NCBI GenBank assembly: GCA_002633275.1
Contig: NWBO01000020.1
Coordinates: 1 to 64,000 of the forward strand
DNA: 64,000 nt
Direction of reading: 5' to 3'
Source: Bacteroidales bacterium Phil12
GTDB taxonomy: Bacteria; Bacteroidota; Bacteroidia; Bacteroidales; P3
The notes beneath the pieces are model-generated. The model saw nothing but the letters and a program-made list of their open reading frames with translations, did not search any database and was not told the DNA's origin. The translations under genes and the position numbers were made by a program. This document shows, one piece after another, positions 3,080 to 28,980 of this stretch. How positions within the stretch are numbered: position 1 is the stretch's first letter; each line of letters begins with the position of its first letter.

Positions 3080-6000
3080 TTATTCTCCGTCATTGTAGCC
3101 CGACAATTCAATATTCTTGATAAAGGAACGTTTTTCGCTCGGAGTGGATAGACGATAAGTATAGATTTTACCATTTTTGGCTTTGGTTTCTTTATCCTTA
3201 CCGTTTTTAACCAAATCATTAAAGTTTTCGTCCGAAGATATTGCTCCCATAGATGCACCATTGTATGCGAAATAATACCAATTGTCAGGGTCTTGCTCCA
3301 AATAAATTCTTAGTTCGGTAGCAATACCTGTCTTTATCATCTGTATCTTTGTTCTCACTTTTCTATTGACTTGAACACCGCCTACAACAGCAACCTCCGC
3401 ATCACTATTTGCCAAATAACAACGACGAATAGGATCCCAAGACAATGTAACATCGGTAAGCAATAATGAATAGTTCATATTTGACGGCAGCTTCTCCCAC
3501 TCGCCGTATTGAATCAAATCCTGGAACAACTCCTCGCCTTTTTCGTCTCCATACTTGTGATGCAAAAATTCTTGGTATTTAGCAGAGTTTTCAAAATCTA
3601 TAACAGGCAAATTCATATCGTCAAACATACCTTTACCCATATATTCCAAGGCTTCCTTGGAGAATGGGAAGTTTATTGCCAACGACATCTTGATTGTTGC
3701 ACTCTCGCCGTCGCCACTCGCCGTTATCTGTCCGTAATTATCCGTTACAACCGCTCCGCCTATCGGCATACCAAGTTCTATCTTACCCAAACCTTTGGCA
3801 TTGCAAGATTTTGAACCGATAGATAGATAATCGCCAACGACATTCTTCATATCGGCAAGTTTTTCTTTCGATGCAATACGATATTCTCCCGACTGTTTAT
3901 CGTAAGTTAAAAATCCCTGACCTTTTATAAATACGTTGTCCGCTTCTTTATCCGAAGTAAAGAAAGCAGGTTTAGGTCGTAGAGAGTTTTCATCAAATAA
4001 AATAGAGGTTGTTATCCTGTTGCCCTCGACATCAACAGGTGCTTCGTTGATTGGAATAAATATATTGTCGGCATCTAAACGGGCAACAAATTTCAGCCAT
4101 GGATTTTCGCTTTCACTACAATTCATTGTCAGCGTAACGCCCCCGTCAAAACTCATAACCGAATCCGGAGCAGAAACCATAAGCTGCCCGAAGAATTTGA
4201 ATGCAGTACTCAAATCCAAAGGCTCTTGCTTGGTTATATCGGCATACGCAACGGTATAGCCTGTGGCAGGAGTAATATCTTTGAAGAATACCTCTGTAAT
4301 CTTGCCGTCCATATCTTTATAATCCATATATCCGTTGGCAGAATACATCTTACCTGACTGAATATGTACTCTTGCGTTTTTGACAGAATGTAGTTTAGTT
4401 TCGGTGTTAAATACAATATCGGCTTTATCGATAGTATCCATTTGAGCACCCGGATGCAATATTATTTGAGAATTTGCAGGTTTAACGGCAGCATCGGCAG
4501 TCATTATCATATACACTCCGTCGGCAGTCAATTCGTTTGTATTCAAATTAAGTTTTGCATTAACGGAATTGAACGAAAGACTGTCTTGCGACGGATGAAC
4601 AGAAGTAAAGGTTGCTCCCGGTTGCGGTAAATCTATTATTTCTTTCAAAGGCTTGTTTTCAAATCCTCCTCCGTTTGTCGAAGCAGAGTTTTGAAGAGCA
4701 AGTAACTTGTTTTGCATATCCCAAGAGAAACGATCGACATAACACTCGTATTGTAAGTATGGCAAATCGTTTTTCTGCAATCCGTTTTTGGTGGTAAAAG
4801 TACCTTGTTTTGTTTTGTAATCGACAGAGGCTTTAACATTCTGAGCGTGGAATGCAACGCTATTGCCATCCAAAGCCTTTAATGTAAAATCAGCACTGTC
4901 GGAAGTAAAGGAATCAGGCAAATACTTTATCAAATCACTCTTGACAATCATTTCATCGGTAATGTTCTCGCCGCTACCTGTCAAAGCATTCGGATAAACT
5001 CTCAACAAACCGTTTTGTATTGAGTGGTTGTCAGCGTACATATTAAACTCTTCCGCTTTTTGTTCGACAACCATATAATTTTGTTGCTTATAGAATGTTT
5101 CTTTGGTCTTGGTAACTGCGACTTGCGGGCTTTCGTAATTGAATTTTGTTGTTTCACAGAACATACTATCGGGATGAAAGACAAACATCTTACTTTCACT
5201 TTCAGATGCCCCGAAATCCCAACGTCCTGTACCCAAAAGACCATTGGTCGATAAGTCTATACTATTATAATATCTGGCTTTGCCGCCGTATGCAGCAAGA
5301 CCCTCTTGTGGTAATTGCTTCTTAAATCCCAAAGCATAGTCGGGCATAACCACCAAAGGTTCGTTGATTGGTGCAAATATGTCTGCCGAATGCAAAACAC
5401 CCTTCAAAACAATATCATTTGTCTTGAACGAGAATAAATTCTTGATAACAAAAGGCTCCAATTCGTAATAAAATGTTGCCGTATCATAGACACCGTTTTG
5501 AATTTTAGGATTATCATAATAAACATACGAAGTCTTTAACGAAGACAATATAGGATAATCCTCCAACTTCTTTATACTCGATTTATTATCCGCTTTATCA
5601 ATCACCAATTGGCAATCCAAACGACGAATAGGCGTTTGAATTTTCACAAGTGTGTTGGTATCTTGGAAAGAAGGCACAACGAAAACCAAAGAATCACTGG
5701 CTGGTAAATCCAATGTAAAGTTATCATAATCGAACTTGCAATTCGTTCCGCTCATCTTAAATCTGCCTGCCATAACACTGCCGTCGAAAGTAAAACTTCT
5801 GTTTTTCTGCATAACAATCTTACCTTCGTATGGAGTAATTCTCACACCATGACTATCAGATACGGTAAAAGTCTCGATACCATTCAAACGCAAATCCATA
5901 TCATATATATTAAGCACTGCGTTAGGCTCTCCGTTTTTCGTTGTGGATAACATACGCAACACATCATAGTCTTTCTTTTTAGCGTTATTCTTGATATAAT

Positions 6001-7564
6001 CGTACAATTTATCTTTGACTATTGCTGTTTGGCGATAAGATTCGTAGGTAACAAATCCACCCAAAGAAAGATTCATCAAAAGCAACTGGCATTGCGTTTC
6101 GTCCAAGCCCGTAAAGGACGACAAACCTTTAACCGTTACTTCCTTTTTACCAGTTTTGTCGGTATATTGCTTAATCCTATAAAGAGGGCTTATTTCATCG
6201 ATGCCCTGAATTTTATACCAACGAAAATCGGAATAATATGAGATACTCTCAATAGTAGCAAAGGCATTATTCGACGGGCCCCTGACGGCAGAAAACTCTA
6301 TCGTGTGATCGTCCAAACCCGCATACAAAGCCTCGGAATATATCTCAACCGCATGATATGAATCTATCCAAGGAGAAGCCGAAATACCTGTTTTGTTATT
6401 CGAGCAAAGAATGATATGAGTGTTTTTGTTGTAATTCATTTTTGTTCCCGGGTGATAAACGCTGTCTTTTGCCCCGCCTTTGGATTGAACGTAAAAAGTA
6501 ACCTGACAATCTTCGCTTATTATTCCCTCTCGTGAAAAAGGATGTTCTATGGCTTTGGCAACCATAAACACATCTCCGTCCTTATGAAATATAAGTTTGG
6601 CAGGCTCTTTTCTTGAACCCGTACCGAAAAATCCGCCACCTTGTTGAGAAAATCCACCTACGTAATCAACGTTTGGAAATACGCTTTTGATGTATTCGGT
6701 CTTTTTATAAGATGTAAATCTTGGGTAACGAGATTCTTTTGTAGTCTTTTCGGTTATCTTGTCCGTGAAAACACCGTCCAATGTATAAGAGAAATATTCT
6801 TTATTAGTAAAACTTACGCTGTCTGCCGAGAAACCCGCAACTTTCAATGCCACATCATAAGTCTTTAACTTACAAAAAACGCTATCCTTATTCAAACCGC
6901 TACGCTCCCAATTGACCGTACCGCCTTTACCTTCCCAAAAATCTTCCATAATATACATCTTACCCGTTGTACCATATATGGTACCGCCGCCTTTACTCAT
7001 TCCATAAGAAAGATTGATTGGCGTAGGAAAATCGGCATAAACGCCACGTTCGTTATCAATGCGAAAAGCATACGGAGTGCCGTTGTCAAAAGTCCATTTT
7101 GAGGTTTTGGTGTAATGCAATGAGTTATTGACTAAAAGATTATACGTTGCCTCCATTGCTTGATTGTAAATCTTGATATTATGCTTATCAAGATATTGCT
7201 GCATACCTTTAAGCCATTGATTGTAACTCTCCGCCGTTTGGTTGGACGAGGTAAAAGCAATCTGAGTCAAGATAAAATCATAAAAACCATTCCTCGCACG
7301 AATATTTTTCTTAACCATAGTCTGCGAAAGTTTAATAACGTCTTTTTTGTGTTGGAGGTTAAAAGTATTCCAAACGCTATCGTAAGAATTTATAATACTC
7401 TCCCACTCTTTTTTCTGGTCTTTATTCATATTTTGGTCGGTTTTGTACAATTCCTCCAACTCTGAAATATACGTATCCGCACTGCCACTGAAATTCTTAA
7501 ACCTTTGAGCAAAACCACTTGTGCAAACAAATGATAAAACTATGATTAAAATGTATTTTTTCAT
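3080..7564 (-). CDS. Very large secreted protein of unknown function (1494 aa)
   Basis: I do not recognise a named domain. The protein starts with a signal peptide (MKKYILIIVLSFVCTSGFAQ). Residues about 20-170 are helical and polar. The rest is long and beta-rich, with many short strands separated by Gly/Asn/Asp turns and recurring phrases about a value being assigned along a surface, such as DFTLKALDGNSVAFHAQN and KADIVFNTETKLHSVKNARV. This strand-turn rhythm resembles beta-helical or OstA/LptD-like repeats, but that is inference. No C-terminal type IX sorting domain or obvious terminal barrel is seen. It starts 3 bases after the prmA stop codon, so it is probably co-transcribed with prmA, and a strong terminator ends the unit. 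The likely location is the periplasm or outer-membrane face. Confidence 0.75.
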   Translation of the reverse strand: MKKYILIIVLSFVCTSGFAQRFKNFSGSADTYISELEELYKTDQNMNKDQKKEWESIINSYDSVWNTFNLQHKKDVIKLSQTMVKKNIRARNGFYDFILTQIAFTSSNQTAESYNQWLKGMQQYLDKHNIKIYNQAMEATYNLLVNNSLHYTKTSKWTFDNGTPYAFRIDNERGVYADFPTPINLSYGMSKGGGTIYGTTGKMYIMEDFWEGKGGTVNWERSGLNKDSVFCKLKTYDVALKVAGFSADSVSFTNKEYFSYTLDGVFTDKITEKTTKESRYPRFTSYKKTEYIKSVFPNVDYVGGFSQQGGGFFGTGSRKEPAKLIFHKDGDVFMVAKAIEHPFSREGIISEDCQVTFYVQSKGGAKDSVYHPGTKMNYNKNTHIILCSNNKTGISASPWIDSYHAVEIYSEALYAGLDDHTIEFSAVRGPSNNAFATIESISYYSDFRWYKIQGIDEISPLYRIKQYTDKTGKKEVTVKGLSSFTGLDETQCQLLLMNLSLGGFVTYESYRQTAIVKDKLYDYIKNNAKKKDYDVLRMLSTTKNGEPNAVLNIYDMDLRLNGIETFTVSDSHGVRITPYEGKIVMQKNRSFTFDGSVMAGRFKMSGTNCKFDYDNFTLDLPASDSLVFVVPSFQDTNTLVKIQTPIRRLDCQLVIDKADNKSSIKKLEDYPILSSLKTSYVYYDNPKIQNGVYDTATFYYELEPFVIKNLFSFKTNDIVLKGVLHSADIFAPINEPLVVMPDYALGFKKQLPQEGLAAYGGKARYYNSIDLSTNGLLGTGRWDFGASESESKMFVFHPDSMFCETTKFNYESPQVAVTKTKETFYKQQNYMVVEQKAEEFNMYADNHSIQNGLLRVYPNALTGSGENITDEMIVKSDLIKYLPDSFTSDSADFTLKALDGNSVAFHAQNVKASVDYKTKQGTFTTKNGLQKNDLPYLQYECYVDRFSWDMQNKLLALQNSASTNGGGFENKPLKEIIDLPQPGATFTSVHPSQDSLSFNSVNAKLNLNTNELTADGVYMIMTADAAVKPANSQIILHPGAQMDTIDKADIVFNTETKLHSVKNARVHIQSGKMYSANGYMDYKDMDGKITEVFFKDITPATGYTVAYADITKQEPLDLSTAFKFFGQLMVSAPDSVMSFDGGVTLTMNCSESENPWLKFVARLDADNIFIPINEAPVDVEGNRITTSILFDENSLRPKPAFFTSDKEADNVFIKGQGFLTYDKQSGEYRIASKEKLADMKNVVGDYLSIGSKSCNAKGLGKIELGMPIGGAVVTDNYGQITASGDGESATIKMSLAINFPFSKEALEYMGKGMFDDMNLPVIDFENSAKYQEFLHHKYGDEKGEELFQDLIQYGEWEKLPSNMNYSLLLTDVTLSWDPIRRCYLANSDAEVAVVGGVQVNRKVRTKIQMIKTGIATELRIYLEQDPDNWYYFAYNGASMGAISSDENFNDLVKNGKDKETKAKNGKIYTYRLSTPSEKRSFIKNIELSGYNDGE

Positions 7565-7567
7565 ATA

Positions 7568-8413
7568 TTACAATTTTTTAAGAGCCAACAAAGCCCAGTT
7601 ATCTCTGATATTTTTATTGTAAAACGTAAATCCGTATTGTTTTGTTGTGTCTTCCAACTCCGCAATATCATCTTCGTAAAAACCGCTTAACACCAAAATA
7701 CCCTCTTGTTTAATTCTCTTTGCGTATGAACTCATATTGTCCAACAGAATATTCAAATTGATATTAGCAAGAAACAAATCGAATTTTTCTTCACTCTTTT
7801 CGTCTTGTTCTCCTACCAATTTAACGCAAATATCCACATCATTGGCTTTGCCGTTATCCTTTGCGTTGCGATAAGCCCACTCATCTATATCCACACATTC
7901 CACATATTTTGCACCCATCTTCTTTGCTAAAATACCAAGTACTGCCGTGCCGCAACCCATATCCATAACGTTTTTGCCGTTCATATCAATCTTTGACATG
8001 TATTCAATAATCATTGCAGTTGTCGGGTGATTGGCCGTGCCGAATGATTGTTGCGGATTTATGATTATATCATATTTTACCTGCTTATACGGTTGGTTGG
8101 ATTTTCTTATATGACAAAAATTGCCGAACAAAACACTTGGCGAAGTCTCTTCCCATACTTTATTCCAATTCTCATCTTTTATGAATTTGATTTCATATTT
8201 CACCGCTTCCTTATCATTAATGAGCGAAGAGGTTATTGCATTCTGAACAGCAGTCTCTGAAAACAAATTCTCTGGACAATAAGCCTCAAAACTATTGTCA
8301 TCTATATCGACAAAAGAATCAAAACCTATTTGCGCCAAATCGTTTTTAAGCAAATCCGTTTCAAAATCGCGAGACTTGGAACTTAAAAAAAAATTTACCT
8401 GATAGTAATTCAC
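7568..8413 (-). CDS. prmA: Ribosomal protein L11 methyltransferase
   Basis: A 281-residue SAM-dependent methyltransferase that trimethylates ribosomal protein L11 in the cytosol. The C-terminal Rossmann domain begins with motif I D151-M-G-C-G-T, preceded by the characteristic PrmA segment GTANHPTT (125-132). LANINLNIL (about 214-222) corresponds to the NPPY-like catalytic stretch, which in PrmA reads LANI. The N-terminal domain (1-110) is the divergent L11-recognition part. The gene lies between tpiA and the 1494-residue gene. It is separated from tpiA by a terminator and runs directly into the secreted-protein gene. Confidence 0.93.
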   Translation of the reverse strand: MNYYQVNFFLSSKSRDFETDLLKNDLAQIGFDSFVDIDDNSFEAYCPENLFSETAVQNAITSSLINDKEAVKYEIKFIKDENWNKVWEETSPSVLFGNFCHIRKSNQPYKQVKYDIIINPQQSFGTANHPTTAMIIEYMSKIDMNGKNVMDMGCGTAVLGILAKKMGAKYVECVDIDEWAYRNAKDNGKANDVDICVKLVGEQDEKSEEKFDLFLANINLNILLDNMSSYAKRIKQEGILVLSGFYEDDIAELEDTTKQYGFTFYNKNIRDNWALLALKKL

Positions 8414-8444
8414 TTGTGTATTTGTTTTAGATAAAAAACAAACA

Positions 8445-8483
8445 ATGCCGTATAACCTTTCTTTATCACAGACTATACGGCAT
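8445..8483 (-). terminator. Terminator between tpiA and prmA
   Basis: Ten-base arms ATGCCGTATA (8445-8454) and TATACGGCAT (8474-8483). On the minus strand the hairpin is followed by TGTTTGTTTTTTAT. It lies just downstream of tpiA and 31 bases before the prmA start. Confidence 0.8.
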
Positions 8484-8501
8484 ATCGTATTTCATATTTC
8501 A

Positions 8502-9260
8502 TTAGAATGAGCAGGCAATTTCGATAAAGTCCTTACCCTTCAATGATGCTCCGCCAATCAAACCGCCGTCAATATCTTCCATTGCGAACAAATCCTTAGC
8601 GTTTTTGGCATTACAACTTCCGCCGTAAAGGATAGACACCTCTTGTGCGACATCGTCGTTGTATTTTTCACAGATAAGGCTGCGGATAAAAGCATGCACC
8701 TCTTGGGCTTGTTCCTTGCTTGCCGTATGTCCCGTACCTATCGCCCAAACAGGTTCGTATGCTATAACACATCGCTGCATATCGTCGGCAGACAAATGGA
8801 ATATTCCCTCTTGAATTTGAGTGCGGATTACGTCAAGGTACTTACCCGATTCTCTTTCTTGAAGGCTCTCTCCAACGCACATTATAGGGGTTATATCTTC
8901 ATTGAGAAGTCTGTCTATCTTTTGGGCTATATCTTGATTGGTTTCACCAAAATATTTTCTTCTTTCGCTGTGTCCGACGATGCAATAATCAACGCCCAAA
9001 GATTTCAACATAGTTGCACTCACTTCACCGGTATATGCTCCGTTTTCAAACTTTGATACATTCTGTGCTCCCGTAAAGAAATCTCCGTCTTCACTTACAT
9101 CGCTGACCAATTCCAAGTAAGGAAAAGGAGGACAAACCACCACATCGACATCGGCAGTATCATAATTGTGCAATTCTTCTGCAATAGAATTTACCAAGTC
9201 ATCTGCCTGCGGAAACAATTCGTTCATTTTCCAGTTCCCTGCTACGATATTTCTTCTCAT
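8502..9260 (-). CDS. tpiA: Triosephosphate isomerase
   Basis: A 252-residue TIM-barrel enzyme that interconverts dihydroxyacetone phosphate and glyceraldehyde 3-phosphate in glycolysis. All catalytic residues are visible: K11 in GNWKMN, H97 in GHSERR, and E169 in AYEPVWAIGTG. The phosphate-binding stretch LYGGSC is near residue 215. Length and start are normal. It is transcribed alone, with its own downstream hairpin. A -7-like TAACTTTG lies about 70 bases upstream on the minus strand. Confidence 0.97.
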   Translation of the reverse strand: MRRNIVAGNWKMNELFPQADDLVNSIAEELHNYDTADVDVVVCPPFPYLELVSDVSEDGDFFTGAQNVSKFENGAYTGEVSATMLKSLGVDYCIVGHSERRKYFGETNQDIAQKIDRLLNEDITPIMCVGESLQERESGKYLDVIRTQIQEGIFHLSADDMQRCVIAYEPVWAIGTGHTASKEQAQEVHAFIRSLICEKYNDDVAQEVSILYGGSCNAKNAKDLFAMEDIDGGLIGGASLKGKDFIEIACSF

Positions 9261-9684
9261 AATGTTATATGTATTTATATTGTTATCTGTTCGTATTTAT
9301 ACTGTTATCATTCAAAATATTTTGAGGAGTGCAAAGTTATAAAATTTTTCACAATTCAACATCAATAATATCCATTTTTTGAAAACGTTAATAAAAATCG
9401 CAAAATTAGTGTTAAACATCAATAAATTTTTATTAAACATCAGCGAAATAGTGTTAAACACTGATTTTTTAATACGTGTTAAAAATTTTCTGCCGTCTTA
9501 TTTCCACAAAAAAACCAAGGCTGCTCATTAAAATATATATGGTATAAAGAAGATTGTTTTACAAAAAACATATTCTCTTTTCTTTCTAAATAAAAATTTA
9601 TTCCCTCACGAAAAACATAAAGCATAACAATTAAAGTCTGTTTGATGTATTTTCATCGTCAAAACAAGAATAGAGAGAATTTTT
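9261..9684. other. Intergenic region between divergent tpiA and arcA
   Basis: About 420 bases without a gene. It holds the tpiA upstream region (-7-like CAAAGTTA on the plus strand at 9332-9339), a dispersed repeat at 9412-9472 and the arcA promoter at its right edge. Confidence 0.6.
9412..9472. repeat. Dispersed intergenic repeat, GTGTTAAACA type (copy 2)
   Basis: Units AATTAGTGTTAAACATCA, TATTAAACATCAG and AATAGTGTTAAACACTGA follow one another. The third matches the inverted copy at 18.15-18.2 kb closely (CAGTGT...CACTGATGTTTAACACTAATTTTTTAAT on the opposite orientation, read in short segments). Confidence 0.55.
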
Positions 9685-9715
9685 TTTGCGGTTAGGAAAA
9701 ATTATGCTAAATTTG
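9685..9715 (+). promoter_or_regulatory. Promoter of arcA (Bacteroidota -33/-7 type)
   Basis: TTTG at 9685-9688 and TAAATTTG at 9708-9715 are separated by 19 bases. This is the TTTG/TAnnTTTG pattern of the primary sigma factor in this phylum. The implied transcription start, near 9721, excludes the upstream ATG at 9686 as the start of arcA. Confidence 0.75.
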
Positions 9716-9736
9716 CACTTTCTAAATTTTCAATTT

Positions 9737-10975
9737 ATGAATAAAGTATCAGTATTCTCAGAAATAGGACGATTGGAAGGCGTTATATTGCATACACCCG
9801 GAACGGAGATTGAACAAATGACGCCCGACACAATTCAACACGCTTTGTACAGCGATATACTAAATTTGAAAATTGCACAAAAAGAATATTCCTTGTTTAG
9901 CGGCGTATTGTCTTCGTGGTGCGAGACTTATCAGATTGTGGATTTGTTGGCAAAAGCATTACAAGACGATATTGTAAAACAAGACCTTCTTAAAAAAATT
10001 CTTGAAAGAGAAAACAAGAAATTTATATATGTGGAATTGATTGAACAAAGTTGCGAACAATTGGCAAAATACCTTATTGAGGGTTATCCGTACAAAGAAG
10101 GAATACACCCTGCGGAGTTTAAGGAAAAACGTTTTGTTTTAGAACCTTTGTACAATCTTTTCTTTACTCGTGATGCCTCGTCAAGTGCGTACGACCAAGT
10201 TATAATACATTCTATGCGTACAACGGTGAGAGATAGAGAAAGTTTTATAATGGAATGTATCTTTCGCAACGTTTTTCAAACCGAGATAATCAATCCTAAA
10301 CTTATTTCTCCCGAAGCCACAACAGAGGGTGGCGATTGCCTTATAGCAAACGACGATACGCTGTTTATCGGCAACGGATTACGCACCAACGCAAAAGGTA
10401 TCGAGTTTATGACCAATTGGTATGCCGCAAGAAAACCCAAACAAAGAATACTTGTTCAGCAATTGCCACAAACAAGAGATTCTTTCATACACTTGGATAT
10501 GGTTTTCAATTTCTTGGATAAAGACAAGTGCATCGCTTACGAGCCTTTGATATGCAAAAAAAATACTCAATACACAACGACCGTTATCGACATAGACCAC
10601 GGCAATATAACCTATAAAGAATATCCTTGTTTTATGGACGCAACCAAATCTTTGGGCTTTGATTTGAAGCCTATCGCTTGTGGAGGAGACGACCTTTGGA
10701 ATCAAGAAAGAGAACAATGGCATTCGGGTGCCAACTTCTTCTGTATGGGTGAGGGTAAGATAATAGGATATGCTCGCAACACTCATACTATTGACAATTT
10801 GAATAACAATGGTTTTGAAGTCATTGATGCGCAAGATGTCGTTAGTGGAAAAATCGATTTGAAGACAAAAGACAAATTCGTTGTTACCGTTCAAGCAAGT
10901 GAATTGCCACGAGGCTGCGGCGGAGCGAGATGTATGACTATGCCGATAAGACGACAGAGTGTTAATTGGAAATAG
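9737..10975 (+). CDS. arcA: Arginine deiminase
   Basis: About 412 residues, converting arginine to citrulline and ammonia in the cytosol, the first step of the arginine deiminase pathway. Guanidino-modifying-enzyme landmarks are present: FTRDAS (about 161), GGDCLI, the histidine stretch DSFIHLDMVFN, and nucleophile C399 in GCGGARCMTMP near the C terminus. I moved the start to the ATG at 9737. An in-frame ATG at 9686 lies inside the promoter, and the family begins close to the segment MNKVSVFSEIGRLEGVILHT. No arcB, arcC or arcD homologue lies beside it, so the rest of the pathway would be elsewhere. The DUF2723 gene follows 22 bases downstream and could share the transcript. Confidence 0.93.
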   Translation: MNKVSVFSEIGRLEGVILHTPGTEIEQMTPDTIQHALYSDILNLKIAQKEYSLFSGVLSSWCETYQIVDLLAKALQDDIVKQDLLKKILERENKKFIYVELIEQSCEQLAKYLIEGYPYKEGIHPAEFKEKRFVLEPLYNLFFTRDASSSAYDQVIIHSMRTTVRDRESFIMECIFRNVFQTEIINPKLISPEATTEGGDCLIANDDTLFIGNGLRTNAKGIEFMTNWYAARKPKQRILVQQLPQTRDSFIHLDMVFNFLDKDKCIAYEPLICKKNTQYTTTVIDIDHGNITYKEYPCFMDATKSLGFDLKPIACGGDDLWNQEREQWHSGANFFCMGEGKIIGYARNTHTIDNLNNNGFEVIDAQDVVSGKIDLKTKDKFVVTVQASELPRGCGGARCMTMPIRRQSVNWK

Positions 10976-10997
10976 AACTTATAAATAAACCTAAACA

Positions 10998-13900
10998 ATG
11001 AAAAAATACAGATTACTAAACAACTGTATTGGATGGGCGGTGTTTGTTGTTGCAAGTATCGTTTATCTGATGACTGCCGAACCTACCGCATCTTGGTGGG
11101 ACTGCGGAGAGTATATTGCCACTACGAATAAATTAGAAGTAGGACACCCACCCGGAGCACCTACGTTTCAACTTATAGGCAGATTGTTTGCGTTGTTTGC
11201 AGGCGGTGATGTTACAAAAGTTGCATTGATGATTAACAGTATGAGTGCCATTTGTAGCGGACTTACCATATTGTTTTTGTTTTGGAGTATCACTTTGCTT
11301 GCAAAGAAACTTGTTCCGACAGAAGACAGAGAGAATATGTCCGCCAGTCAGATGATTGCCGTTTTCGGTAGCGGTATCGTCGGTGCATTGGCATATACTT
11401 TTTCGGATACATTTTGGTTTTCGGCTGTTGAAGGCGAGGTTTATGCAATGTCAAGTTGCTTTACCGCAATAGTATTCTGGGCAATACTGAAATGGGACGA
11501 ACAATCGGAAGATACACACAACTTGCGTTGGATTATATTGATTGCATTCCTTATAGGTGTTGCGATAGGAATTCACTTACTGAATATTTTGACAATTCCT
11601 GCCATTACATATATAATTTACTTCAAAAAATACAAGAAAACAACAGTTAAGGGCTTTATTATTGCAGGTTTGATTTCCATATTGGCAGTTGCGGCCGTGA
11701 TGTATTTCATCATTCCTGAGATTGTTAATTTGGCTTCTTATTTTGAAGTATTCTTTGTAAATAGCATAGGTTTGCCGTTCAATAGCGGTACAATTATTTA
11801 TTTTATAGTATTGTTCGGTTTATTGATATTCGGTTTGTATTGGTCAAGAAAGAAAGTAAAACCGATATTGAATACAGCCATTCTTTCGGTATTATTCATC
11901 ATTTTAGGATATTCGACATTCGCCACATTGGTTATACGTGCCAATGCCAACACTCCTATCAATGAGAATGCACCAAAAGACGCTGTTGCACTTTTGACAT
12001 ATCTCAACCGTGAGCAATACGGAGATACGCCACTGCTTTACGGACCTTATTATAATGCGGACATAAAACGTGATAACCAAGGTCGTCCTGTGTATGATTT
12101 CTCCACCAAATACGTAAAAGACAAGCAAAGCGGCAAATATCAAAAGGTAAAACGTGCTTCTTCTCCTCAATGGGACGATAAGGATTGCAGCGTTTTCCCT
12201 CGTATGTATTCAAGAGAAGAAGGCAGAAGACACGTTCAATATTATAAGATGTGGGTCGGTAAAAGCGAAGACAATCCGACGAAACCGTCTTTTGGCGAAA
12301 ACCTAAAATACTTCTTCCGTTACCAAGTCAATCATATGTATTGGCGTTACTTTATGTGGAACTTTGTCGGCAGACAAAACGATATACAATCTTATGGTCT
12401 GTTATACGAAAATGCTCCTGCCGATATATCCAACGGACAAAAGGATTTAATTCACGGCAATTGGATTAGCGGAATCAAATTCTTGGACGAAATGCGATTG
12501 GGACCTCAAAGCAATTTACCGAACGACTTAAAGAATAACAAAGGTCGTAATACTTTGTTTTTCCTTCCATTGTTGCTTGGTATAGCAGGTTTGATATATC
12601 ATATAAAACGTAACAATAAAGATGCTTTTGTAGTGTTCTTGTTGTTCTTTATGACAGGTCTTGCCATAGTGCTTTATCTAAATCAACCGCCTTGCCAACC
12701 TCGTGAAAGGGATTATGCTTACGCAGGCTCTTTCTATGCTTTTGCAATATGGATTGGTCTTGGAGTGTTCGCTATTTGTGATTGGTTGAAAAACATCAAA
12801 GTACCTACCAATATCAAGAATGCAGCCGTCAGTGTGATTTGTTTATTGGCCGTACCGGTGCTTATGGCTTGTCAAGAATGGGACGACCACGACAGAAGCG
12901 GACGTTATATGGCTCGTGATTTTGCACAAAACTATTTGCAGAGTTGTAAGCCTAACGCAATACTTATCACTTTCGGCGACAACGATACATTCCCTCTTTG
13001 GTACGATCAGGAAGTTGAGGGAATACGCACCGATGTCAGAATTTTGAATTATACTTTGTCGGGTATGGCTTGGTATGTCGAACAACTTTATCATAAAGCC
13101 TACGACTCGGAAAAAGTAAAATTCACTTTGGATAAGTCTTTCTATGCATTGGGACAAGATATTAATTGGGCAAAAGCGTCAATGGATACTTTGGAATTGG
13201 AAGACGCTTTGAAAAACATTCATAAAGCATCTCCGCAAGAAATGCCTTTCAGTGCAATGGATCATTTCAAGGATTACAATTATATATCCGTTATTCCAAC
13301 GAACAATTTCAAAATAACGTTCAATAAAGCCAAAGCCGCAGAGCAAGGTATCTATCCAAAAGACTACGTCGATGACCAACCGGGAGTATTTACTTTCTCG
13401 TTGAATGCACAGCAGTTAGACCAGGAAGGTAGATTCCAATACACACAATTGGCTCGTCAAGAACTTATGTTATTGGATATTTTGGCAAGCAATCACTTTG
13501 AACGCCCGATATATGTCAATAATCCTTACTTGCTTAGAGAAATTATTCCGAATATTATGGAATACGTTATCCAAGAAGGTATGGTTTATCGTATCGTACC
13601 TTATCGTCAAAGCAGAACATACACGGACAACACTTATAAGTTATTTACCGAAACCTTTACGTGGGGTAATGTGAATAAAGAGGGGGTTTATCTTGAAAAT
13701 GCGGTAACTGTAAATAACGCTAAATCCGCCCGTCAAAATATTGCCAACATCGCACAAGACCTTGCACAAAGAGGCGAAAAGCAAAAGGCAATTACCTTGT
13801 TGGATAAGGCCGCAAAAGAATTTCCTGCAAGCAAACTGCCTTACGACAAAGCCGATATGTTATTTGCTCAGGCATATTGTATGGCAGGTGCTATGCAAAA

Positions 13901-23758: not shown

Positions 23759-24346
23759 TTAGCCTAATAACGCGCACACCAAAAAAAATAACATAATGAT
23801 ACCTATATAAATAAGGGGAACAAATCTATCGGAATTTTTATCTTTCTTTGTCTCTTTTCGTGGAAATTCTTTTACAAGCCTTGGTTTGGGTTTCTTGAGC
23901 GGTATGGCAATACGGGAATTGTATTTCACGTAGGATGAAATATTTTTTACTATACCCAAAGAATCACAAAAAAAGTCCGGCTTTGAGTACCCGTAATCAA
24001 TAGGTGGAAGTTCCTCGCAGACCAAATCACTACTTCGAAGCAGTTCTTCCGCCTGTTGTAGGGTAGAATTAATATTACCTTCAATAGAGTAAATGGCATC
24101 GGACAGACCGATAATCGCATCGGGATTAATCATTACTCCGTTAAAACAGGCACAAATGTGATTTCTCAATAATTTGTTGTCATAAAAACTCCAAGCATAG
24201 TACATCAAATTGCCGTTACGTCTTTGAACAAAAAGATACGGCACACTATGTTCCTCATTCAACTTTTTTACTTCTTTGACAAAGTCCTCCGAAAAGGGAA
24301 CTCCGAAAATGGAGTCCCCTATGCTTACTGCTACATCACAATTCAT
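23759..24346 (-). CDS. Tail-anchored hypothetical protein, last gene of the GTPase operon
   Basis: 195 residues, function unknown. The N-terminal domain (1-110) is soluble and compact, and begins NCDVAVSIGDSIFGVPFSEDF. A basic, Lys/Pro-rich linker (about 150-172) follows, and one hydrophobic segment, FVPLIYIGIIMLFFLVCALLG, ends the protein, so it is likely anchored by its tail with the soluble part in the cytosol. It starts 18 bases after the DUF805 gene and closes a six-gene run. Directly beyond its stop, in another frame, is an acidic coding-like stretch with no start codon. Confidence 0.65.
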   Translation of the reverse strand: MNCDVAVSIGDSIFGVPFSEDFVKEVKKLNEEHSVPYLFVQRRNGNLMYYAWSFYDNKLLRNHICACFNGVMINPDAIIGLSDAIYSIEGNINSTLQQAEELLRSSDLVCEELPPIDYGYSKPDFFCDSLGIVKNISSYVKYNSRIAIPLKKPKPRLVKEFPRKETKKDKNSDRFVPLIYIGIIMLFFLVCALLG

Positions 24347-24364
24347 ACGATTGATTTTAATGGT

Positions 24365-24763
24365 TTATTCTTCTTCTCTATACACGCTTTCCTCCACACT
24401 TCGCAAAAAGCCGCACTCAATCAAAAGCCACCAGCGTAGTATCGGAACAAAACTCAAAAACATCCAATATCCACCTTTGTCCCTATCATGTAGGCGTTTA
24501 ACACAGGCACAAATATAAATGTACAAGGCGATTATACACGTAATAATGAACAACAATTGCATTATACTATATTTATCAATACCACTAATATCATAAATAA
24601 TATTAATTGAACCACAACACATCAATAAACAGAGTACTATAGTCCACCATTCTCTACGTTTGATACATCCTTTTGTTGAAAATAATTTTGTTGAAAATAA
24701 ACTCATAATTCGTTTTGTTTTTTTATTGTTTAACATTATTGATTTACTGATTTTGAAATACAT
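24365..24763 (-). CDS. DUF805 membrane protein
   Basis: 132 residues if started at the ATG two bases after the aspartic protease gene; a shorter start at 24706 (MSLFSTKLFSTKG) gives 113 residues and fits the usual DUF805 N terminus better. The family marks are the RREWW segment near the start of the first membrane helix and VKRLHDRDKGGYWMFLSFVP between helices two and three. Three to four hydrophobic segments are present. DUF805 proteins are small inner-membrane proteins without an assigned biochemical role. Within this operon it may be a membrane partner of the GTPase or of the two anchored proteins. Confidence 0.78.
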   Translation of the reverse strand: MYFKISKSIMLNNKKTKRIMSLFSTKLFSTKGCIKRREWWTIVLCLLMCCGSINIIYDISGIDKYSIMQLLFIITCIIALYIYICACVKRLHDRDKGGYWMFLSFVPILRWWLLIECGFLRSVEESVYREEE

Positions 24764-24765
24764 TT

Positions 24766-25290
24766 CTATTCTTGAAATATGATTACGCCGTTTTCGTCAT
24801 CAATCGTAAAACTGCCAAGTTCTCTCAAAGCGGAATTGCCCAAAAGCAAAGGGGCTTTAAAATTGTTTGTAACGAGAGCCTTGACATTCTCGATAACAAG
24901 TCCGTCTGTCAATTCTATTTCTTTAAGATTTACAACCATGTCCTCTACGATACTTCCGTCTGCAATCCGACTTTGAGTATAACCCAAGATGTCGTCGTCT
25001 GTCAGTGTGCCTTGCTTGTAAAGAAACCGTGCTTCGGTCAGTGAAAGGCTTACGCCACTCGCTCCGGTATCGAAAACCATTTCCATTTCCACGCCATTGA
25101 CCTTTACCTTCACATATCTGACGCCACCCCTTACCTCAAAGGGTATCTCGTAGCCGCTGCCCTCATCCATAAGTGTCGTTTCGTCGTCCTCATACGATAT
25201 TTCAACCAAAGGTGGCGGTACAGTCTTGGTGCAAGACTGAGCAAGCACCAAGAAAAGCGGTAAAATCAATAGGATTAAAAAGCGTTTCAT
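24766..25290 (-). CDS. Lipoprotein with retropepsin-like aspartic protease domain
   Basis: 174 residues. The signal sequence ends in a lipobox-like LAQSC (Cys about 20), so the mature protein is probably lipid-anchored. Residues about 50-174 form a retropepsin-like clan AA domain: GVEMEMVFDTGASGVSLS carries the catalytic DTGAS, and PLLLGNSALRELGSFTIDD is the typical C-terminal strand pair. The unit is single-domain, so it should act as a homodimer. It is unusual to find such a protease inside a GTPase/membrane operon. It could cleave the periplasmic part of a neighbour. It begins 9 bases after the 422-residue gene and ends 2 bases before the DUF805 gene. Confidence 0.82.
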   Translation of the reverse strand: MKRFLILLILPLFLVLAQSCTKTVPPPLVEISYEDDETTLMDEGSGYEIPFEVRGGVRYVKVKVNGVEMEMVFDTGASGVSLSLTEARFLYKQGTLTDDDILGYTQSRIADGSIVEDMVVNLKEIELTDGLVIENVKALVTNNFKAPLLLGNSALRELGSFTIDDENGVIIFQE

Positions 25291-25299
25291 AGTTTTTTG

Positions 25300-26568
25300 T
25301 TATTTTTCTACGATAAACTGATGTTTATACTTTTTATCTCCCGTTTCTTCGGCAATAGTAAGAGAAATCGTTACGGTATCTCCGCTATTCGGCTTAATTA
25401 CTTGTGCTGTACATGTACCATCGTCTTCCGATTTTTTGGAAAAACCGTCATATCCCCATTTTTTGACTTTTACTTCACCCGAAATGATAAACTTAATGTT
25501 TTCTCCATATTTTAGTTTCTCTTCGTGTACTGTTAGCGTATCCGAAGAGTAAAGCGAGATTTCTTTTGAGTGCTGTTCTACCTGCTCAGTAGCCGTTGTG
25601 GTATTGGATTCCGTTGTCCCTGCTGGTGATTTGTCGGTTCCACATTTCCGAAACAGTAATACAGTACCTGCAATCAGAAGTGCCAATACAACAATACCCA
25701 AAAGTATATTTTTCTCATTCCAAGGAGTAGTATTTCGAGTTTGTCTATTAGTTGTTCTTGGTTGAGAACTAAAAGGTCGTAATAAATTTATTAGGTCATC
25801 AACCTTTTCACTCAGTAGTTGATAACATTCATTTAATTGTCTTTTTGTTGTGCTGATTTCTTTTTTTAATTCGGAAATTTCAGACCTTAACTCTTTTTCT
25901 GTTGCTTGTGCTTTTTGCAATGTTTTCTCTTTGTCGTCACATTTCTGTTTTAATTTTTTCATATCAGATTCTAATTTTTTAGTTTGTTTGTCTGCTCGCG
26001 GAATTTCGGGGGACAAAATCGCTGAACCACAAGAAAAGAAGTCGTTAAGGAACAAGTCGCAGCCATTTTCAGATACATGGCAACGCAAAGTACGGTTGTG
26101 GTCTGGATTTGAATCTTTTCGTTCCAAAGGAGTAAAACTTTCGGAAAAGCTCTTTGTCAGGAAGTTTTTCAAGATTTCTACTATACTTCCGTATTCTTTG
26201 TCAAAATTTGAAACTAAAAACTGCTTTTGCTTGTTTATCAACTTGTCTTCCACCTTTTTTTCATACAATTGAACAAATAGTTGATACAACCTTGCCATAT
26301 CCTCACAACAAGCCCCTTCGGAGCGAATACTTATGGCAAAGTATCCACCGCTTCGTCCTTTGTTCTCTTTTGTGTTGGGAACTATGTAACTATAATAAAA
26401 ACACTTTTTTCCGTTTTCTTCTTTTATATCGCAGCGGACAAAGTTTGCTTTTTCGTTCTTAAACTCTTCGCTATACAGAGTTTCGCTGTATTTTCTCAAA
26501 ACTTCATCTCCTCTGAATTGTTGTCCGTCCGGATTTCCGCTTATCGCAATTTGAAATTTATCATTCAT
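25300..26568 (-). CDS. Single-pass membrane protein with N-terminal domain, coiled coil and periplasmic domain
   Basis: 422 residues, no family recognised. There is no signal peptide. Residues 1-180 form a soluble cytosolic domain that begins DKFQIAISGNPDGQQFRG. About 193-265 is a strong coiled coil, rich in K/E/L heptads. One membrane helix (NILLGIVVLALLIAGTVLLF, about 288-308) follows, then a Thr/Ser-rich linker and a small beta domain with regular Val/Ile strands (about 340-422). The topology is cytosolic sensor or effector, coiled coil, membrane, exterior domain. It starts 3 bases after the GTPase stop, so the two proteins are likely made together and may interact. Confidence 0.75.
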   Translation of the reverse strand: MNDKFQIAISGNPDGQQFRGDEVLRKYSETLYSEEFKNEKANFVRCDIKEENGKKCFYYSYIVPNTKENKGRSGGYFAISIRSEGACCEDMARLYQLFVQLYEKKVEDKLINKQKQFLVSNFDKEYGSIVEILKNFLTKSFSESFTPLERKDSNPDHNRTLRCHVSENGCDLFLNDFFSCGSAILSPEIPRADKQTKKLESDMKKLKQKCDDKEKTLQKAQATEKELRSEISELKKEISTTKRQLNECYQLLSEKVDDLINLLRPFSSQPRTTNRQTRNTTPWNEKNILLGIVVLALLIAGTVLLFRKCGTDKSPAGTTESNTTTATEQVEQHSKEISLYSSDTLTVHEEKLKYGENIKFIISGEVKVKKWGYDGFSKKSEDDGTCTAQVIKPNSGDTVTISLTIAEETGDKKYKHQFIVEK

Positions 26569-26571
26569 TGT

Positions 26572-27570
26572 TTATCTTCCCACTCTTTTTAAAATCGTTT
26601 TCCAAAGATTTTCCGGATATTTGTCGCTATCCTCGGTGAACCTCATTTTGTTAGAACCGTCCTCACAAAACGTTCCCGACTTAAACGGAACGAACTCGCA
26701 GTCGTAAGGTTTGAAGAAACTGATTATCGGACGTGTCTCCTTGAATATGCCTAACAACCCGACGTATTGGTCTGAAATGTATTGTCTAAAACGATTTTTA
26801 TTCACAAATCCATTACCTTGTATAAACTCATCAGCCTTATCGACTTTGTTTCCAAGCAAAATAACTCGGTCTCTCGGACTCATATGCTTTTTCAAGTGTC
26901 TGATGCGTTCCACATAGTTGCGTCTGTCTGTCTCGTTTCTCCAATTGGGTTCCAATATTATCACATAGACTTTACGGTTCGGACTGCTGGTTATCTTATT
27001 GAAATAAACCGTGGCATCAACTCTCGAATCAGGATTATTCGGATCAAAATACAACTCTCCCGGTCCCTCCAAAATTTGACAGATTTGTTCTCCTGCATTG
27101 CGGGATACACTAACCAACATAAAATTCATTCTACTGTTGGCTTCCGCTGCAATACTTGCGTTGAGTTTTTGCGAAAAGTCATCGCACATATCTTTGTAAT
27201 TTTTGTCATAATCGGGTCTGAAACTGCGTACCGGCTTTACTTTATAGTCGCCGGGAAGACAGTTCAAATAACGGGACAGCCTTACAAGGGTCATTGTCTT
27301 ACCACAAGCGGGAGGTCCGAACAAAACAACAATAGGTGTTTTCTTATCGGATATGGTAACCTCCACATCGTTAGGATTATTAAACGCTGTGGCGGAAATG
27401 CCACTCTCTTCGGTTTCTTCTATGGAATTTGCAATATCCTGAGTGTTATATTCGTCTATATCTTCTTCGGGATAATTCGTTTCATTTTCCGTTTCGGGGA
27501 TATCAGTTTCTTTTGTTTCCTCCTGCTGAACTATTGGTTGTTCATTATCATCATCAAAAAAATTTGCCAT
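26572..27570 (-). CDS. TRAFAC-like GTPase with acidic N-terminal tail
   Basis: 332 residues, cytosolic. Residues 1-75 are acidic and probably disordered. The nucleotide-binding domain follows: G1/Walker A GPPACGKT (85-92), a G3-like LEGPGE (167-172), and G4 NKVD (241-244) after the strand RVILLG. G4 specificity for guanine is the main reason to call it a GTPase rather than an ATPase. The domain architecture resembles the GTPases found in bacterial conflict systems, but no assignment to a named family is possible by eye. It starts 35 bases after the 344-residue membrane gene and ends 3 bases before the coiled-coil gene. Confidence 0.8.
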   Translation of the reverse strand: MANFFDDDNEQPIVQQEETKETDIPETENETNYPEEDIDEYNTQDIANSIEETEESGISATAFNNPNDVEVTISDKKTPIVVLFGPPACGKTMTLVRLSRYLNCLPGDYKVKPVRSFRPDYDKNYKDMCDDFSQKLNASIAAEANSRMNFMLVSVSRNAGEQICQILEGPGELYFDPNNPDSRVDATVYFNKITSSPNRKVYVIILEPNWRNETDRRNYVERIRHLKKHMSPRDRVILLGNKVDKADEFIQGNGFVNKNRFRQYISDQYVGLLGIFKETRPIISFFKPYDCEFVPFKSGTFCEDGSNKMRFTEDSDKYPENLWKTILKRVGR

Positions 27571-27605
27571 TGCTTTATATGTTTTGTGTTATACATTAAT
27601 ATTAC

Positions 27606-28640
27606 TTAATCGTTTTCCTTGAACGCCACATTGAAGAATACAAAAGCAGCAAGGTCTATCACCAAGGAGAGCAAAATCCAATAAATCATACCCGAATCCG
27701 CAGTTTTGAAATTGCCTTTGAAATAGTCAGACCAAACTTCCGTTACATTGATAAGCCTTTCGGATTTGTAACCCGTGTATCCGTCCTTTATTCCCTTGGC
27801 TTCAAGTGTTCCTCGGGCTGTTCTGATTAAATCTCTCGATTGAGCGAGCAAAACATCTTGGTCAGACAGCGTTGCTCTGTCCAAATTCTGAATGTTGTTA
27901 TGCAGATTGGTTATTTGTACATTCATTTTTTTGGATTCCTTTTTAAGATTTGCCTTGTGGGACTTCCACTGCTCTTCCATTTGTTTGTGCTGAATTTCTA
28001 TTTGCTCTTCTATTTGCCTGTCATAGAACTTAATCGCACTGTTTATCTCTTGTTGCGACCTGCCTATATTGGTCAAACGGGTTATCGTTCCGACTTTTAT
28101 GCCCAATGCTTCTTCCACTCTTTGCAAACAACGCTCGGCTCTGTCTCCCACACCCGGACGTTCAGGGTGTTCTATCTCTGCTCTTAGAGCTGTTTTGGCG
28201 GAACGGGTTTCCTTTTTCTTGTTCTCAAATCCTGTCATGAACTTTTGGTGTGCTATTTCCTCATTCGTCAGTTGTTGAAGTTGCTGAATGAGATACAACT
28301 CTTCGCTTTTGGCAAAGTCTCGTGCATTTTTGTTATAGAAAAGAGAGTGTGAATTGGTCGGAAATGATATTAAAAGCCAAGTTATCAAGACAATAACCAA
28401 GCCTCCCGCCAATTTTTTTCCGCGATTGTCTATTATCAAATTGCGGTTAAAACTGTCCATAATCATTTTTGTCCCATAAGATGTTAAGATGAACAGTCCT
28501 ACAATTGCAATCCACAAGCACCATTGCGGAATTGCCGACATTGAAAGATGAATACTGCCTACCGTAAGGTAGCAACTGACTGCCGCAAAAGCGACAAACA
28601 TCACTAAACAAACAATTTGAAAGGGTGTTTTTCTTCCCAT
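27606..28640 (-). CDS. Four-helix membrane protein with long coiled-coil insert
   Basis: 344 residues, first gene of the operon. Hydrophobic segments lie at about 8-27, 36-56, 77-95 and 315-338. Between the third and fourth is a 200-residue, highly charged helical region (about 115-300) with heptad character, including EEQIEIQHKQMEEQWKSHK. The plan of three N-terminal helices, coiled coil and one C-terminal helix resembles DUF4407 proteins in outline, but the sequence match is not certain. It probably scaffolds the GTPase and the coiled-coil protein at the inner membrane. Its start follows a 280-base leader behind a canonical promoter. Confidence 0.75.
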   Translation of the reverse strand: MGRKTPFQIVCLVMFVAFAAVSCYLTVGSIHLSMSAIPQWCLWIAIVGLFILTSYGTKMIMDSFNRNLIIDNRGKKLAGGLVIVLITWLLISFPTNSHSLFYNKNARDFAKSEELYLIQQLQQLTNEEIAHQKFMTGFENKKKETRSAKTALRAEIEHPERPGVGDRAERCLQRVEEALGIKVGTITRLTNIGRSQQEINSAIKFYDRQIEEQIEIQHKQMEEQWKSHKANLKKESKKMNVQITNLHNNIQNLDRATLSDQDVLLAQSRDLIRTARGTLEAKGIKDGYTGYKSERLINVTEVWSDYFKGNFKTADSGMIYWILLSLVIDLAAFVFFNVAFKEND

Positions 28641-28980
28641 TACTATTAATGATTTTTTGTTTGCCCAAGTGGTTTTTGGAGCTTAAATAAAAACAAAAAG
28701 AAAGCGCGAACCACGCTGCCACTCCCTCAACGAAGGTCCTGAGAATTACCATAATACCGAGAACAACAACAATAGCTCACGCCGAAGCGAGAAACTACCA
28801 TGTGTTTATTCGGGTATTGAAAATTTCTCAGGTTTTCATTGACGAATAAAGCACAACGCTTTCACTAACAAAAATAAAAAGCACAACATCAAGAACAAGT
28901 CAATACTTTGCACTTTTCAATTGCAAAAGTACAACTTTTTCCTTGAATACAAATAATTTGAATAAAAATTTTTCGTGTAA
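28641..28980. other. Leader of the GTPase operon and spacer to the next operon
   Basis: About 340 bases. The promoter at 28924-28953 faces left, so roughly 275 transcribed but probably untranslated bases precede the first gene. Within them are GC-richer, locally self-complementary stretches (around 28725-28820). An open frame at 28447-28752 overlaps the first gene in another register and does not look genuine. Confidence 0.5.
28924..28953 (-). promoter_or_regulatory. Promoter of the GTPase operon
   Basis: On the minus strand TTTG (complement of 28950-28953) and TACTTTTG (complement of 28924-28931) are separated by 18 bases, one short of the spacing seen at other promoters here. Confidence 0.6.

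Follow-up and report, generated by a model that had tools for sequence, protein, structure and literature searches.

Gene content of the operon

The DNA analysed here is a 64,000-nucleotide stretch of Bacteroidales bacterium Phil12 (assembly GCA_002633275.1, contig NWBO01000020.1, positions 1 to 64,000 of the forward strand), hereafter referred to as the window. It carries on its minus strand six closely packed genes centered on a GTPase, whose order is kept in other genomes and which form a real recurring system, beyond chance. The intergenic distances taken from the open reading frame (ORF) list are 35, 3, 9, 2 and 18 bases, in agreement with the gaps of 2-35 bases reported in a first description made from the sequence alone (the original prediction). 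The features are as follows.

28953-28924, minus strand: promoter-like site TTTG-N18-TAnnTTTG, a pattern match about 280 bases before gene 1
27606-28640, minus strand: gene 1 (TM4), 344 amino acids (aa), from the ORF list and hydropathy
26572-27570, minus strand: gene 2 (GTPase), 332 aa, from the ORF list and motifs
25300-26568, minus strand: gene 3 (N1), 422 aa, longin-type domain via profile similarity to N2
24766-25290, minus strand: gene 4 (PROT), 174 aa, retropepsin-like lipoprotein, from Pfam PF13975 and PF13650
24365-24763, minus strand: gene 5, 132 aa, accessory DUF805 membrane protein, from Pfam
23759-24346, minus strand: gene 6 (N2), 195 aa, short form, longin-type domain and C-terminal transmembrane (TM) segment

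The product of gene 2 is a soluble protein built on a G domain, in which motifs G1 and G4 are recognizable. Hydropathy gives no TM segment, the N-terminal 61 residues are disordered, and the three motifs read earlier (GPPACGKT, EGPGE and NKVD) are all present. The protein combines a G-domain fold with G1, G3 and G4, which places it among the P-loop GTPases as a predicted GTP binder. Its G3 reads E-x-P-G-E instead of D-x-x-G, and E168, P170, G171 and E172 are invariant across 47 aligned GTPases, the Walker B role being assigned by position. No Ras- or Arf-type family was found among the 10 Pfam matches of the window GTPase at E 1, and a profile search against the sequences of solved structures returned generic P-loop matches only (best E 0.0022, SRP54). 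The plasmids, phages and viral contigs searched contained no relative of this GTPase.

Genes 3 and 6 encode related single-pass proteins with an N-terminal longin-type domain and, in the majority of their relatives, a variable part past the membrane. The kinship of the two N-terminal domains emerged from profile similarity and had been missed in the original prediction. The longin fold was recognized in a model of the N2 domain, built on the N2 protein of locus L061 (23% identical to window N2 over the alignment), and N1 was assigned to it by similarity to N2. At E 0.001, the 44 N2 proteins scanned matched 21 Pfam families, none of them a longin family, and a profile search of N2 against solved-structure sequences yielded nothing meaningful. 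In gene 3, the longin-type domain (approximately residues 1-190) is followed by a likely coiled coil, the single expected TM segment (288-306 by hydropathy) and a C-terminal domain on the opposite side of the membrane. The coiled coil described earlier is consistent with weak Pfam matches to coiled-coil families, mostly around residues 189-269; these matches, among the best 25 of 43 families at E 1, lie below cut-off and were set aside. Gene 6 had been called tail-anchored. Its TM segment is indeed C-terminal (176-194 by hydropathy), but the protein is a short form, and its counterparts elsewhere extend past this segment.

The four membrane helices originally described for gene 1 were recovered by hydropathy (9-27, 34-52, 77-95 and 322-340), and four TM segments are present in 41 of the 48 relatives scanned. 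A loop of about 225 residues separates the third and fourth segments; judged by eye under the positive-inside rule, the short-loop charges suggest that it is periplasmic. Gene 4 encodes an exported retropepsin-like lipoprotein, as already surmised from its DTGAS motif: it exceeds the cut-offs of gag-asp_proteas (PF13975, 47.8 bits for 28.2) and Asp_protease_2 (PF13650, 39.4 bits for 24.3), and a cysteine follows a hydrophobic stretch. Among the 42 frames of this family, D[TS]G is found in all and a lipobox-like cysteine in 40 (loose pattern). Gene 5 matches DUF805 as announced (62.2 bits for 25.7) but is an accessory extra outside the core; it is missing from the same operon in a sister genome (locus L017), and among the 63 downstream proteins scanned DUF805 occurs in two, those of the window and of L061, besides being part of two of 44 N2 proteins. 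For genes 1, 2, 3 and 6, no Pfam cut-off was reached among the matches listed; those of genes 1 and 6, all below cut-off, were set aside.

The promoter-like site was judged against the Bacteroidetes-type consensus. It is a candidate for the single promoter proposed originally, but weak evidence, since the two strands of the window carry 17 such matches. The leader between this site and gene 1 (28641-28923, about 280 bases) is nearly identical in L017; an Rfam scan of the window gave tRNAs only, with no match in the leader.

Conservation, turnover and neighboring genes

By protein search, homologues of the GTPase with 41-42% identity were located in three further genomes of the order, with the same neighbors in each. 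Seven of the 393 genomes of the order sample were matched, and the four with strong matches were counted as carriers; in G103, G365 and G186 the matches were short and weak, at E 5e-6 to 6e-4, no system genes were recognizable by eye nearby, and these three were rejected. In the phylum sample, 3 of 395 genomes were matched, the own genome strongly and two others at E 3e-4 to 6e-4. When each species was represented by one genome, 52 loci were obtained, mostly from rumen or gut Bacteroidales metagenome-assembled genomes (MAGs), with Parabacteroides distasonis NM39_I3, Bacteroides luti DSM 26991 and Hallella mizrahii as named strains. The three genomes located by the first search recur here as L061, L062 and L063, and a single MAG contributes both L036 and L037, on separate contigs. 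The contigs of L039, L042 and L068 are titled Bacilli, Clostridia and Roseburia and carry typical Bacteroidales versions; these Bacillota names are likely MAG binning errors.

Neighbors were counted by six-frame search of the 52 loci and the window. Gene 1 precedes the GTPase in all 51 loci with DNA at that place (in two frames in L046), N1 follows it in 51 of the 51 loci with at least 1 kb (a second GTPase intervening in L066), and N2 is present in all 43 loci with at least 3 kb. The retropepsin lipoprotein, whose association with such a GTPase had been pointed out originally, is a regular partner, found in 36 of the 43 loci with enough DNA and missing in L032, L034, L040, L044, L052, L054 and L065. 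The same five-gene order is displayed by a deep branch, at 27-31% identity in the GTPase, in two congeners of the window (L115 and L117). This conservation of neighbors therefore indicates a real system of five core families, where recurrence of at least four of the six in other genomes had been proposed as a check. No profile or literature match to a described operon was found; the search for a paper describing it covered titles and abstract starts in the open-access literature, most subscription papers being outside its scope. The alignments retained 47 of 48 GTPases (A5), 46 of 48 N1 (A6) and 38 of 48 N2 proteins (A7), truncated or misstarted sequences being left out, as well as 44 of 48 rows (A8) and 63 of 70 downstream proteins (A9). 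Upstream of gene 1, L115 (13341-13532) and L117 (9456-9692) encode similar small proteins that look helix-turn-helix-like by eye.

The sister genome RUG093 (L017) carries the operon at the same site. The twelve flanking ORFs are 92-99.5% identical between both genomes, whereas within the operon identity over aligned residues falls from 95% for gene 1 to 87% for the GTPase, 78% for genes 3 and 4 and 71% for gene 6. The nonsynonymous (dN) and synonymous (dS) divergences of N1 are 0.120 and 0.112, a dN/dS of 1.07 for this one pair (95% interval 0.68-1.77), compared with 0.01-0.20 for ten flanking genes. The dS of genes 4 and 6 reaches 0.6-0.9 vs 0.13-0.29 in these ten genes, which indicates recombination, and selection above 1 is therefore not claimed. 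In other close pairs, dS is mostly saturated.

The distribution is patchy as well. Among the same-genus genomes listed, 6 of 14 (own genome included) carry the GTPase. The family figure is 10 of 101 genomes, including one matched no better than E 1.2e-4. The copies of G816, G826 and G795 lie away from the window's flank gene (on different contigs, or 21 kb off), and G795 and G826 have two copies each. The congeneric copies form separate, well-supported pairs of the GTPase tree, in which the bootstrap is not settled: the window with L017, L022 with L027, L116 with L066 and L115 with L117. No empty site could be demonstrated in the congeners, the flank genes of G816 and G795 being on different contigs and G826 giving no match for one of the two. 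Such patchiness and turnover are usual for conflict genes and do not prove a conflict role.

The N2 tails and the genes after N2 are variable. Five of the 63 downstream proteins match BACON, two Endonuclease_NS and two DUF805, with SNase, peptidase M15 and others found once each; because cytochrome bd, LuxS and other ordinary genes occur among them, many are merely neighbors. One N2 carries an FGE-type domain. L053 (12587-19372) contains tandem N2-type frames with five N2 matches, the last with an FGE-sulfatase domain. Pairs resembling ZorA/ZorB (E 6e-6 to 3e-12) adjoin the core in 2 of 47 loci, directly after N2 in L019 (13309-15616) and directly before gene 1 in L055 (275-2351). A HEC-01-type pair lies downstream of the operon in L063 (14791-16589), and in L057 (10454-12753) a second divergent GTPase comes after N2, with a caspase-like protein further on. 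The six window proteins gave no strong PADLOC match to a known anti-phage system, the best being E 3.2e-5 in the coiled-coil stretch of gene 3 and 8.5e-5 in the P-loop stretch of gene 2; ZorA and ZorB were absent among these matches at E 1.

A candidate GTPase switch of the inner membrane

The architecture fits the membrane-associated switch with a periplasmic proteolytic side outlined in the original prediction. With moderate confidence, we read the operon as a self-contained inner-membrane GTPase switch that combines a longin pair, periplasmic sensing and retropepsin cleavage. Where the original prediction had the GTPase state relayed by coiled coils, the likely contact of the GTPase is a longin-type domain in genes 3 and 6. 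In the proposed mechanism, the longin domains of N1 and N2 would be cytosolic and would pair as a heterodimer; bound to the GTPase, this dimer would set or read the nucleotide state of the enzyme, by analogy with the longin pairs acting on Rag and Rab GTPases (FLCN-FNIP, Lst4-Lst7 and Mon1-Ccz1). Sensing would fall to those portions of N1, N2 and gene 1 that lie in the periplasm, and the retropepsin would, through cleavage, alter the longin pair, and hence the GTPase, across the membrane. The variable tails of N2 and the genes downstream may provide sensing or output.

The least certain step is the use of the device, which would most likely be a response to envelope-level attack by a phage or a competitor. 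A crude count gave no enrichment of defence genes in the neighborhood: at E 1e-8, 105 PADLOC models were found in 140 flank proteins vs 112 in 134 control proteins, the count being one of models instead of proteins matched, with match lists of up to 25. The flank set held 152 proteins (at most two per side, at least 120 aa, 47 loci without L037, L039, L042, L050 and L067), of which 140 were used; as controls, 20 stretches from 20 system-carrying genomes supplied 205 proteins, of which 134 were used, with limits of 900 aa each, 140 proteins and 49,000 residues. A MotB-type start motif was seen in two of the 140 flank proteins vs none of the 134 controls.

Compared with the eukaryotic and Asgard longin regulators (Lst4-Lst7, FLCN-FNIP, Mon1-Ccz1, Fuzzy-Inturned and the Lokiarchaeal roadblock-longin proteins), those of the operon are bacterial single-pass proteins with tails past the membrane, their longin domains give no Pfam-level match and their GTPase binding is predicted. 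A bacterial parallel is MglA/MglB, a Ras-like GTPase with a roadblock protein acting as GTPase-activating protein (GAP) and exchange factor (PMC10933270, PMC3521125); there too, a bacterial GTPase is paired with a roadblock/longin-type regulator. Longin and roadblock folds are mutual circular permutations according to one of these two sources, and an origin of longin from prokaryotic roadblock proteins is discussed in PMC3521125. Unlike MglB, the operon regulator has the longin strand order instead of the permuted roadblock one, is membrane-anchored and duplicated, and the operon adds a protease and a four-TM protein. MglB was absent among the 50 matches listed in a test for a roadblock regulator, where absence is no exclusion.

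Alternative readings

The alternative that survives best, possible if on the unlikely side, is a DO-GTPase-type conflict system in which GAP1 was exchanged for the longin proteins, with variable tails and genes downstream as effectors. With the DO-GTPase/GAP1/GASH systems (PMC7159879) the operon shares the Walker B glutamate, an APGE-type motif, a conserved core with fast-changing variable parts, and membrane association. The nuclease, BACON, FGE-type and ZorA/B-like genes found downstream or in tails at a few loci point the same way, whereas the ordinary neighbors and the lack of enrichment near defence genes in the crude count do not. Unlike these systems, the window has one GTPase, with longin-type proteins and a retropepsin instead of GAP1 and GASH: neither these nor FNIII were among the Pfam matches listed for the six window proteins (for gene 3, the best 25 of 43), whereas the GAP1-N1 and GASH of a genuine system in L086 do score. 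An alignment by hhalign of the N2 domain with the start of one GAP1 protein gave nothing, a low-power comparison with a single sequence. The window GTPase matches neither DO-GTPase1 nor DO-GTPase2 even at E 1; DO-GTPase2 is matched by 6 of 47 family members at E 0.1 (best 0.0053). The operon GTPase profile gives a poor alignment with a true DO-GTPase2 (probability 9, E 0.0037), whereas the intermediate GTPase of L088, itself above the DO-GTPase2 cut-off, does align (probability 82, E 1.1e-5).

The L088 locus (G550 C4:29000-45000, 5643-12306) is possibly a sister system. Its GTPase is flanked by a membrane protein of 306 aa on one side and a protein of 600 aa on the other, with a subtilase upstream. 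The start of the 600-aa protein looks strand-strand-helix-strand-strand by eye; hhalign gave nothing for it as a longin protein, and among 298 genomes searched it had no match besides itself.

Somewhat less probable, and in our view rather unlikely, is the same machine used for envelope-stress or osmotic homeostasis, sensing periplasmic damage and adjusting membrane or wall with no role in immunity. The RloA proteins of Pseudomonas aeruginosa are periplasmic retropepsins serving osmotic stress tolerance according to PMC12239564, where an exported retropepsin-like protease likewise shares an operon with a membrane protein; they carry a signal peptide where gene 4 is an apparent lipoprotein, and the GTPase and longin partners are particular to our operon. 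A DO-GTPase family protein co-occurs with PSP envelope-stress genes (PMC11237479), and the crude count shows no enrichment of defence models in the flanks. A homeostatic device would, however, be expected to be more widely and stably spread than 4 of 393 genomes of the order and 6 of 14 of the genus, and neither the unlike versions in congeners nor the faster divergence of the operon than its flanks fits this use.

It is improbable that the longin-type domains never contact the GTPase, sharing only a fold while the genes act at different steps; in the 16 genomes searched the N2 domain was found only together with this GTPase, and N1 follows it in 51 of 51 loci. A targeting or assembly device resembling the signal recognition particle receptor, with GTPase and longin-type domain as SRPRB and SRX placing the lipoprotein, DUF805 or outer-membrane partners without signalling, is very improbable given a GTPase without membrane anchor, two longin proteins, and a divergence and patchiness beyond those expected of a cargo device.

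The inner-membrane switch remains our preferred reading. Because it unites a GTPase, an exported retropepsin and a pair of longin-type proteins anchored in the membrane, this conserved bacterial operon would be a tractable example of transmembrane GTPase signalling in bacteria, and it would widen the range of GTPase-centered systems that may serve immunity. It is directly testable because versions occur in named strains. More tentatively, and with considerable doubt, the operon may represent a new class of bacterial transmembrane receptors, in which paired single-pass proteins serve, through their cytosolic longin domains, as the exchange factor or the GAP of a dedicated Rag/Arf-like GTPase and are switched when a lipoprotein retropepsin cleaves on the periplasmic side, in a fast-evolving envelope immunity of Bacteroidales. 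Longin domains on small GTPases organize membrane traffic and nutrient signalling in eukaryotes. If true, the receptor reading would provide a bacterial counterpart of a longin-GTPase logic that has until now been linked with eukaryotes and Asgard archaea.

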